A DNA stretch of 36,461 nt. Origin: a virus. Of the stretch, positions 13,389 to 32,993 are shown in pieces. Numbering within the stretch: position 1 is the first letter of the stretch; each line of letters begins with the position of its first letter. The position numbers and the translations under genes are program-made. The stretch spans positions 1-36,461 of IMG/VR virus record IMGVR_UViG_3300042569_001506, one strand, 5' to 3'. The notes under the pieces are model-generated. The model worked only from the letters and a program-made list of their open reading frames with translations. It had not been told where the DNA came from and did not search any database.

Positions 13389-13410
13389 TGTGTTTTATTT
13401 ATGAGTTTTT

Positions 13411-13441
13411 TAAATATAACATTTTAAAAACAAAATGCAAA
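13411..13441 (-). promoter_or_regulatory. Late-type promoter
   Basis: On the - strand: TTTGCAT (TTTG at 13441-13438), 19 nt, TATATTTA (13418-13411), 23 bases before the ATG of the 145-aa gene. It can re-initiate transcription of the head genes inside the late operon. Confidence 0.65.
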
Positions 13442-13462
13442 TATTTTTTATAGTTTATAAAA

Positions 13463-16804: not shown

Positions 16805-16809
16805 ACTTT

Positions 16810-16840
16810 TAAATATAATATTTATTTTTATAAATGCAAA
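16810..16840 (-). promoter_or_regulatory. Late-type promoter
   Basis: On the - strand: TTTGCAT (TTTG at 16840-16837), 19 nt, TATATTTA (16817-16810), then AAAGT and ATGG. It is almost the same arrangement as the promoter before the tape measure, including the start-codon context. Confidence 0.65.
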
Positions 16841-16861
16841 TAATATTTAAAATAAATTTGA

Positions 16862-28398: not shown

Positions 28399-28668
28399 TT
28401 ATTTTACATTAAATAATTGATAATATATTCTATGTATTCGATTGCCTTTTTTAATATCAAATGATTTTACGTTTATAGTACCATCAGTTTCATTGTTTGA
28501 TATAATTTCAAGTCCTTTAAACTTTTCTTTTATAAAATCATCAGCGCTATCTATTGAGTAACATATAGCTAAAGTTTGATTATGAAATTCATATTCTAAA
28601 TCATCAGTATCTAATAATGATTCTTTAATTAATACTACTTCAATATTTCTTTTAAAATGGCAATCCAT
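28399..28668 (-). CDS. Hypothetical protein, 89 aa
   Basis: 89 aa: NIEVVLIKESLLDTDDLEYE, a YSIDSADDFIKEKF segment and a C-terminal IHRIYYQLFNVK. Mixed alpha/beta; no family recognised. Its start codon lies inside the sequence that encodes the lost or read-through SSB-like tail of the gene upstream (28652-28711), so translation of that tail would bring ribosomes onto this start. Confidence 0.5.
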   Translation of the reverse strand: MDCHFKRNIEVVLIKESLLDTDDLEYEFHNQTLAICYSIDSADDFIKEKFKGLEIISNNETDGTINVKSFDIKKGNRIHRIYYQLFNVK

Positions 28669-28711
28669 CCTCTATTTCACTTTTCGTTGGTTCAGCTGGT
28701 GCTTTGGCAGT
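28652..28711 (-). other. In-frame tail beyond an internal TGA, ending in an SSB-type acidic tip
   Basis: After the TGA at 28714-28712 the same frame continues for 19 codons to TAA (28654-28652): TAKAPAEPTKSEIEDGLPF. A Pro/Ala/Lys linker followed by acidic residues and a terminal D-G-L-P-F is the signature of bacterial and phage SSB C-terminal tips (D-D-[ILV]-P-F). Either the TGA is a recent nonsense mutation or sequencing error, or it is read through. Confidence 0.6.
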
Positions 28712-28948
28712 TCAGTTGCTACCATTACTTTTTGGCTCAAATGTATTTAATACTAAGCTCAAAGCATTTTCATCTTTTTTTTGCTTCAATATATCAAAGT
28801 TTACATATCCGCTACTATTTGCATTTTCTTTTAAAAATTTAATAGCATCTTCTACCTTGATATTCAAAGTACCTAATACATAATCTGGTGCGCCTTGTCT
28901 TGGAAGCTTACCATAAAATCCTTTGCCATATACTTTTTCGTTTGCCAT
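28712..28948 (-). CDS. SSB-like / DNA-associated protein, interrupted by TGA before its tail
   Basis: 78 aa as read to the first stop: MANEKVYGKGFYGKLPRQGA, YVLGTLNIKVEDAIKFLKEN, then GYVNFDILKQKK and LSLVLNTFEPKSNGSN. The beta-helix-beta pattern with 'YGKGFY' and 'GYVNFDI' recurs, to my recollection, in small early proteins of Bacteroidota phages that end in DDLPF-type tips. Here that tip lies beyond an in-frame TGA (feature 28652-28711), making a full-length product of 97 aa if read through as one residue. It is probably a ssDNA-binding or replication accessory protein. It lies 4 bp from its upstream neighbour. Confidence 0.6.
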   Translation of the reverse strand: MANEKVYGKGFYGKLPRQGAPDYVLGTLNIKVEDAIKFLKENANSSGYVNFDILKQKKDENALSLVLNTFEPKSNGSN

Positions 28949-28952
28949 TTGT

Positions 28953-29321
28953 TTAATTGTTTAATCGTTCTTTTAATTTAATATTATCTATTTTTATGAT
29001 GTTTAGTAGATGGTCTGGTAGGTTTGAATTGATAATGCAACTTGTATTATGTGATTCATTTTCATATTTACCGCTCCTGCACCCTATTAACTCTAATTTT
29101 ATGTCATCTATTGTCATGCCTTTAATTGTCAATAAACTACCATCTATTACAAGTGAAGCACCTATTTCGTTATTTTCAAATACTAAATTTTTACCTGTAT
29201 GAAAGTAATTTACAGGGCAATTTATAAATTGTCTTATCTTGTTATCATAGATTGCATAAACTCTACAAAATGCAGTTTTTCTAGTATTTATAATCTGTAA
29301 GACCTCTAAATGATATTGCAT
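28953..29321 (-). CDS. Hypothetical early protein, 122 aa
   Basis: Starts at ATG 29321 (MQYHLEVLQIINTRKTAFCR), which sits right behind a consensus promoter; an ATG at 29405 lies upstream of that promoter and is rejected. The protein is beta-rich (RVYAIYDNKIRQFINCPVNY, NEIGASLVIDGSLLTIKGM) with Cys in IGCRSGKYENESHNTSC. First gene of the leftward early/middle operon. No family recognised. Confidence 0.55.
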   Translation of the reverse strand: MQYHLEVLQIINTRKTAFCRVYAIYDNKIRQFINCPVNYFHTGKNLVFENNEIGASLVIDGSLLTIKGMTIDDIKLELIGCRSGKYENESHNTSCIINSNLPDHLLNIIKIDNIKLKERLNN

Positions 29322-29325
29322 AATG

Positions 29326-29356
29326 CAAAAATAGTACTTTTTTATCATTTTACAAA
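29326..29356 (-). promoter_or_regulatory. Consensus Bacteroidota promoter, leftward early operon
   Basis: On the - strand: TTTG (29356-29353), 19 nt, TATTTTTG (29333-29326), four bases before the ATG. Both boxes and the spacing are exact. The short distance implies an almost leaderless mRNA. Confidence 0.75.
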
Positions 29357-29465
29357 TTAAATTATATGATTTATTTAAACTAAATTTTATTAGCTTAATT
29401 ATCAATGCTTTACACTTTATTTTGCATATTTGTAAAAATAAATTTTTATTTACGTAAAAAGGTTA

Positions 29466-32055: not shown

Positions 32056-32136
32056 CGACGTTTGCAGATAAGCGAAGGCACAAATAGCGTTGGCATTGTG
32101 CGAGGGATTTGGGCTTTTGCTTATGTGCTGTTATGT
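32050..32136 (+). other. attC-like recombination site 3
   Basis: R'' AAATAAC (32050-32056) overlaps a stop codon; left arm 32064-32084 (GCA, then ATAAGC, then AAGG.ACAAAT); right arm ~32107-32128 (ATTTGGGCTTTT, GCTTAT, then TGC); one base; R' GTTATGT (32130-32136). Arm layout, including the G/G mismatch between the GCA/TGC and AT-rich blocks, is the same as site 1 although sequences differ. Left spacer 7 nt, right spacer 1 nt. Confidence 0.68.
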
Positions 32137-32183
32137 GTCTGTAATTTTTTTAAACTTTTGTGCGTAGACTTTTAAATTATAAT

Positions 32184-32993
32184 ATGAAAACAATAACATC
32201 AATTTCAGGAGGTAAAACCTCTGCTTACTTAGCGAAACACTATCCAACCGATGAAAATATATTTGCATTGATTAGGATTGAAGATAGGAGATGCACTCCA
32301 AAGGATAAAGCATTGGTGCAAAAGATTAGCGATAAAATAGGAATGGAATTTATAGCTACTGCCGAAAGTGATACTACATTAACATTAATGTTTGATTTGG
32401 AGCAGTTACTTGGTAAAGAGATAATTTGGGTTACTGGCGATACTTTTGAGCAAGTGTGCCTAAAAAGAAAAGCATTACCAAACTTAATGATGAGATTTTG
32501 CACTACTGAAATGAAGATGAAACCAATATTTGAATTTTGCCATAATCATTTTGGAATGGTTGAAATGAATATCGGATTTAGATTTGATGAAATGGAACGT
32601 GCTAATAGCCAAAATACGAAGTTTAAGACTATTACAGGGCAAAGTGCTAATGGTAGAAACAAATGGACTGAAATAGAATGGAGAACTTGTAAATATCCAT
32701 TGATAGAAAACAGAATAAGCCATTACCAAGTAGCACAATGGGCAAATAAAACAGATTTGATATTTCCACCTGATAGTAATTGTGTTGGTTGCTTTTGGAA
32801 AAATCCACAACAACTTAGGAAAAACTTTGATGATGAAAGTTTGAAAATGCAATGGTTCGCAGATATGGAAACAACACTAAAACGCAAATGGAAAAAAGAA
32901 ATGAGTTATGAGAAAATAAAAACTATTGGACTGCAACAAGATTTCTACTTCGGAACCGGAAGCGGATGTCAAGCAGGATTTTGTACCGACTAA
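32184..32993 (+). CDS. PAPS-reductase-like PP-loop ATPase / sulfotransfer enzyme
   Basis: 269 aa from ATG 32184 (an ATG 24 bases upstream adds MRRLLNYN without support). The PP-loop SISGGKTSAYLAK (6-18) binds ATP/adenylate; MMRFCTTEMKMKP (102-114) corresponds to the RxCxxxLK-type loop of PAPS reductase-like enzymes; a CVGC pair (200-203) and two late Cys (CQAGFC) could bind iron-sulfur or zinc. The family adenylates and transfers sulfur or reduces PAPS; phage members are linked to DNA or RNA thio-modification. Substrate unknown. The partner gene in the same cassette acts on nucleosides, so a base modification is plausible. Confidence 0.82.
   Translation: MKTITSISGGKTSAYLAKHYPTDENIFALIRIEDRRCTPKDKALVQKISDKIGMEFIATAESDTTLTLMFDLEQLLGKEIIWVTGDTFEQVCLKRKALPNLMMRFCTTEMKMKPIFEFCHNHFGMVEMNIGFRFDEMERANSQNTKFKTITGQSANGRNKWTEIEWRTCKYPLIENRISHYQVAQWANKTDLIFPPDSNCVGCFWKNPQQLRKNFDDESLKMQWFADMETTLKRKWKKEMSYEKIKTIGLQQDFYFGTGSGCQAGFCTD

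Follow-up and report, generated by a model that had tools for sequence, protein, structure and literature searches.

An in-frame UGA stop codon separates the body of a small SSB-like gene from a conserved acidic C-terminal tip in one closely related group of freshwater phages. The best reading, put forward as a candidate with a rough probability of 0.57, is that termination at this UGA is leaky, such that a single gene would yield a tipless majority and a tipped minority of the same protein. The reading is supported by the conservation of the UGA, the intact and constrained tail behind it, the homology of the tip to the ends of distant relatives, the linkage of those relatives to annealase genes, and the fact that UGA is not reassigned elsewhere in the genome. 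The broader proposal, in which a DNA phage controls the proportions of tipped and tipless SSB by programmed readthrough of a UGA and so tunes the number of partner-recruiting tips on its ssDNA, is more tentative and falls somewhat short of even odds.

The proposed mechanism assumes that the product of the gene is a small SSB-like protein that acts in phage recombination or replication and that the UGA has become fixed in the phage group between its putative nucleic-acid-binding body and its C-terminal tip. At the UGA, most ribosomes would halt and release a tipless protein of 78 residues. A minority would decode the UGA by a near-cognate tRNA, most likely tRNA-Trp; the next base is A, which favors near-cognate readthrough in E. 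coli. The readthrough product would have 98 residues, ending in EIEDGLPF, and could recruit partners (e.g., an annealase or the phage NinB/Orf mediator). The number of recruiting tips on coated ssDNA would then depend on the relative amounts of the two forms. Readthrough itself, the inserted residue, the ratio of the forms, and the binding of ssDNA are all predictions from sequence.

The Interrupted Gene and Its Close Relatives

The window, i.e., the whole stretch of DNA that was analyzed, comprises positions 1–36,461 (36,461 nt) of the IMG/VR record IMGVR_UViG_3300042569_001506. On its minus strand, the SSB-like body is an ORF of 78 codons (28948–28712) terminated by TGA (28714–28712) within AAC TGA ACT GCC, a stop codon that is the same in all nine contigs described below. 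The frame then stays open for 19 codons (TAKAPAEPTKSEIEDGLPF, 28711–28655, minus strand), which encode an Ala/Pro/Lys linker and an acidic LPF tip, and is closed by a TAA (28654–28652, minus strand). This arrangement bears out the observation in an earlier note on this DNA that an in-frame TGA splits an SSB-like gene from its acidic tip. A six-frame scan of the 36 kb for tip-like ends ([D/E]..[hydrophobic]PF-stop) returns a single occurrence, the one behind the SSB-like gene. Because no other tip-like end exists in the six frames of the window, the location of the tip in frame behind this gene is not due to chance. Four relatives scanned likewise contain the same single tip and, in two of them, a 9-codon frame ending in GYPF elsewhere. 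No other frame was found to carry the tip; the ATG of a short +1 ORF that lies at the stop is missing from one relative (L009). A tandem AACTG-AACTG (AACTGAACTG, 28717–28708, minus strand) spans the stop codon and could mark its origin.

The upstream neighbor of the gene (28953–29405, minus strand) has ~122 codons from its likely ATG and is also found upstream in L002, L004, and L006. A NinB/Orf recombination mediator, a candidate partner for an SSB in this phage, is encoded at 1727–2158 on the plus strand (phrog_72, E 3.7e-17; NinB, E 4.4e-6). Elsewhere in the window, positions 32160–32993 harbor a phosphoadenosine phosphosulfate reductase-like gene (phrog_424, E 6e-27). Two stretches without a called gene (525–684 and 32056–32159) have a GC content of 40–43%, which is unusually high for this phage, and may represent overlooked genes or recently acquired DNA.

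When IMG/VR was searched for the body, eight further contigs were found, each from a different metagenome dataset, with amino acid identities to the body of 95–100%. All eight carry AAY TGA ACT GCC at the same site, followed by the identical 19 residues in an unbroken frame. A DNA scan with the tail alone, in which any preceding codon was allowed, returns these eight contigs again, and none of the copies has a sense codon at the site. Some of the loci are identical to each other, such that the nine contigs represent six distinct sequences, including the window; nucleotide divergence in the SSB-like gene among the carriers reaches 9%. The pattern GYVNFDI retrieved no new members, and neither hosts nor further members were found among GTDB genomes.

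Since nine contigs from separate metagenomes, diverged by up to 9% in the gene, share both the TGA and the intact tail, two of the three explanations offered in the earlier note, an assembly error (TGG to TGA) and a fresh nonsense mutation, are excluded. The third, programmed readthrough, remains as the best candidate of the three.

The downstream ORF (28399–28668, minus strand) starts at an ATG (28668) inside the tail, as had been noticed before, and the overlap had been taken to mean that ribosomes were expected to pass the stop. The start position holds, but the gene is an optional cassette. Of the nine contigs, the window, L002, and L003 carry it, whereas L004–L009 do not; in these six, conservation of the tail is no lower, and ~30 bases separate its TAA from the start of the next gene. 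Because the cassette occurs in three contigs only and the tail is kept in the other six, the overlap is no evidence of expected ribosome passage, and this argument for readthrough is abandoned. In the three contigs that harbor it, the cassette is inserted exactly after the TAA of the tail, with its start codon supplied by the tail sequence.

A Family of Small Proteins with an SSB-Like Tip

An alignment-based search reaches homologues at 30–50% identity, and two more were obtained from other searches. The 27 distinct homologues from outside the clade include 26 that terminate in an LPF-type tip, with variants that include DLPF, ELPF, SIPF, DIPF, DVPF, and DLPWD, and in no case does a stop interrupt the frame ahead of a tip. 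These 26 proteins share the hallmarks of SSB C-termini, a disordered linker and an acidic, Phe-ended tip. The earlier note had proposed homologues as a check, with tips that were never of the DLPF type counting against its interpretation; LPF tips are instead the rule, and the sense frame runs through to them. The distribution indicates that the tip is ancestral in the family. The exception is L029 (5001–5228), which is tipless, has a TAA at the position matching the focal TGA, and is overlapped at its end by the next gene, illustrating that a tipless member can exist.

The focal stop is followed by an open extension homologous to these tipped ends, and stop and extension are conserved together across relatives (nine contigs and six distinct sequences from one phage group); both features are characteristic of readthrough genes. 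No second tipped gene of this kind is found in five of the focal phage genomes. Therefore, unless readthrough occurs, these phages would be without such a tip.

The small proteins with an SSB-like tip (75–105 residues; L028, L030–L061, L087, and the window gene) constitute an apparently undescribed family. There is no SSB-family match for the 28–31 members compared with Pfam and PHROGs or for the seven compared with NCBIfam. The family has no match of any kind in Pfam, NCBIfam, or PHROGs, and no solved relative is detected by sequence. A model of the homologue L053 (pLDDT 80) folds as strand-strand-helix-strand-strand, followed by a disordered tail. Among the top-ranked Foldseek chains, which are those that were realigned, no solved structure matches this model with E ≤ 0.001 or Z above 2.

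The genes of the homologues sit directly behind annealase genes, the identities of which were confirmed with Pfam. The annealase is ERF in L030, L044, L052, and L053, Sak in L032 and L061, and RecT in L029 and L087. YqaJ or DUF3799 nucleases intervene between the annealase and the homologue at some loci, and at several further loci the upstream gene shares its start with the confirmed ERF proteins. The focal phages have no adjacent annealase; the window does encode NinB/Orf. In phage HK620, the SSB depends on its six C-terminal residues both for the recruitment of the Sak4 annealase to coated ssDNA and for the stimulation of this annealase (PMC5928155). Given the annealase-linked position of the genes and this role of the HK620 tip, the members of the family are probably small SSB-like partners of phage recombinases, with ssDNA binding suggested by the tip and the annealase neighborhood. 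With respect to the mediator encoded in the window, Orf-family proteins bind SSB, and lambda Orf, unlike YbcN, still binds SSB that lacks the C-terminal tail (PMC4118853).

Constraint on the Tail and Possible Decoding of the UGA

In the six distinct sequences, the body is variable at 29 of ~45 synonymous sites and at 7 of ~189 non-synonymous sites. The corresponding values for the tail are 2 of ~13 and 0 of ~44, with no amino acid change, and the difference in synonymous variability is significant (2/13 vs 29/45, Fisher p 0.003). If the tail were drifting at the synonymous rate of the body, ~37 variable sites would be expected where 2 are seen, although the binomial figures for this constraint assume one shared history of body and tail and are not to be read as probabilities. 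Any 57-nt stretch of the body contains at least 5 variable sites, as compared to the 2 of the 57-nt tail. The tail also differs in composition, with a GC content of 45% versus 26% for spacers and 30% for genes. The constraint on the tail is strong, but the changes are too few to distinguish protein from DNA as its target.

A first impression, that the conservation of the tail by itself proves translation, is weakened by equally conserved spacers behind other stops. When the 57 nt after other stops were compared in four relatives, several spacers of the structural region were found to be 100% conserved, while their genes were not. Post-stop conservation is therefore not unique in these phages. 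The fully conserved spacers in this comparison (13406–13462 and 16805–16861) are AT-rich leaders with 7–12% GC. Over the compared stretch, the leaders at 13389–13462 and 16805–16861 are conserved 100% in all relatives, above the level of the surrounding genes. The haplotypes within the SSB-like gene look mosaic, and its first 37 nt are also invariant, which suggests past recombination within the gene, and the tail could thus have a younger history than the body. Since the synonymous sites of the tail are conserved as well, the constraint need not act on the protein. The tail may instead be conserved because of a constraint on its DNA or RNA, or because recombination has given it a recent local history.

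The strongest of the alternatives, albeit an unlikely one, is that the tip was lost in the ancestor of the phage group. The protein would then be tipless in the manner of L029, which is naturally so and ends at the same place, and the tail would be an undecayed relic with a recent shared history. The invariant 37 nt and the mosaic haplotypes are consistent with local histories that differ, and intact non-coding stretches are known in these phages. However, a relic would evolve faster than the gene, whereas the tail evolves more slowly, which speaks against decay. The body is deeply diverged at synonymous sites, yet the tail, located beside a variable cassette boundary, has acquired no frameshift, further stop, or amino acid change. 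Both of its changes are synonymous, and its high GC content is unlike that of most spacers in these phages.

It is improbable that the stretch after the TGA is retained not as protein but as DNA or RNA that serves the next gene as its leader, start region, or regulatory site. The low synonymous variability of the tail, the start of the next ORF inside it in the window, L002, and L003, and the existence of other fully conserved leaders in this phage are all in line with such a role. On the other hand, those leaders have 7–12% GC as opposed to 45% for the tail, the downstream content varies between carriers (with or without the cassette) while the tail is constant, and the retained sequence spells out the tip of the family. 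Moreover, no Rfam family scores above its gathering threshold, and no special fold is evident. The z-scores for a stimulatory RNA structure at the stop range from −0.9 to +0.2, and a hairpin with the UGA in its loop is broken in L009.

A third alternative, which is very improbable, posits that the host decodes UGA efficiently at this site by virtue of a leaky tRNA-Trp, a weak release factor 2, or a host suppressor, in which case the protein would mostly be full length and the TGA near-neutral. TGA is a minor stop in the window, where the ~51 called genes end in TAA (38), TGA (7), or TAG (6), and several of the TGA-ended genes have short run-ons before the next stop. A tRNA-Trp with a four-base-pair anticodon stem that reads UGA occurs in some bacteria (PMC13092985). 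Against efficient decoding, no other conserved frame in the window has an internal TGA, and 6 other genes end in this codon, several of them in ATGA overlaps. UGA is therefore a working stop in this genome, and genome-wide reassignment (codes 4 and 25) is rejected. General recoding had been judged unlikely on the grounds that TGA ends many other genes; the judgment holds, although "many" amounts to 6 others of ~51. The GTDB genomes searched contain no relative. No phage tRNA or suppressor tRNA was found in the window or in longer relatives. A lone tRNA-Gln (TTG) is located in the 168-kb contig IMGVR_UViG_3300034111_001103 (L063–L067, L076, and L077), which looks chimeric, with this phage extending to ~43.7 kb and being followed by a different, large phage that carries the tRNA.

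Bypass of the stop by selenocysteine insertion or by an in-frame hop aided by the tandem repeat has next to no likelihood: UGA is the selenocysteine codon and AACTG is repeated at the stop, but no stable bacterial-type SECIS stem-loop follows the UGA and no SECIS model matches at E ≤ 5, the site lies in a linker in which no aligned homologue has a Cys, the stop lacks identical flanking codons for a hop, and in-frame hopping over a stop is not known to occur naturally (PMC5009743).

Significance and Comparison with Known Systems

With a natural stop located precisely at the junction of body and tip, the proportion of the two forms could be measured, and a change of one codon would suffice to alter it. 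Whether a cell or phage benefits from a mixture of tipped and tipless SSB is a question mostly addressed with engineered proteins. If true, leaky termination at this UGA would be a rare example, among the non-structural genes of DNA phages, of a stop whose readthrough is conserved, with the readthrough adding a partner-recruiting tip to an SSB-like protein. The open-access literature searched contains no report of an SSB with readthrough. The wider tip-bearing, annealase-linked family, which is absent from the libraries searched, merits a description of its own.

The closest parallel for the decoding event is the coat/A1 gene of phage Qbeta, in which Trp is inserted at a UGA about 1 time in 15 (PMC8067240). 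In both cases, one in-frame UGA lies between a complete protein and a C-terminal extension, and a leaky stop gives (in Qbeta) or would give (here) a major short and a minor long form. In contrast, Qbeta is an RNA phage whose extended protein is structural and whose readthrough has been measured, whereas here the protein is SSB-like and from a DNA phage, its extension consists of a recruiting tip of 19 residues, and the readthrough is a proposal. Another phage case in which recoding yields a fixed, minor proportion of a C-terminally extended product is lambda gpG/gpGT (PMC5009743), although that system relies on a frameshift and serves tail assembly, while stop readthrough in DNA metabolism is proposed here.

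As for the protein, the SSB/Sak4 pair of HK620 resembles the family in its annealase neighbor (found here in the relatives) and in its disordered linker and Pro-Phe-ended tip (PMC5928155). The members described here differ from the HK620 SSB in that they are much smaller (75–105 residues) and match no Pfam, NCBIfam, or PHROG SSB model, and in that the tip of the focal group lies behind a stop. The SSB of E. coli likewise has acidic residues followed by a hydrophobic residue, Pro, and Phe (DDDIPF) after a flexible linker (PMC7145534). In E. coli, the tip is present on every subunit, whereas the focal phages are proposed to produce two forms, tipped and tipless, from one gene.
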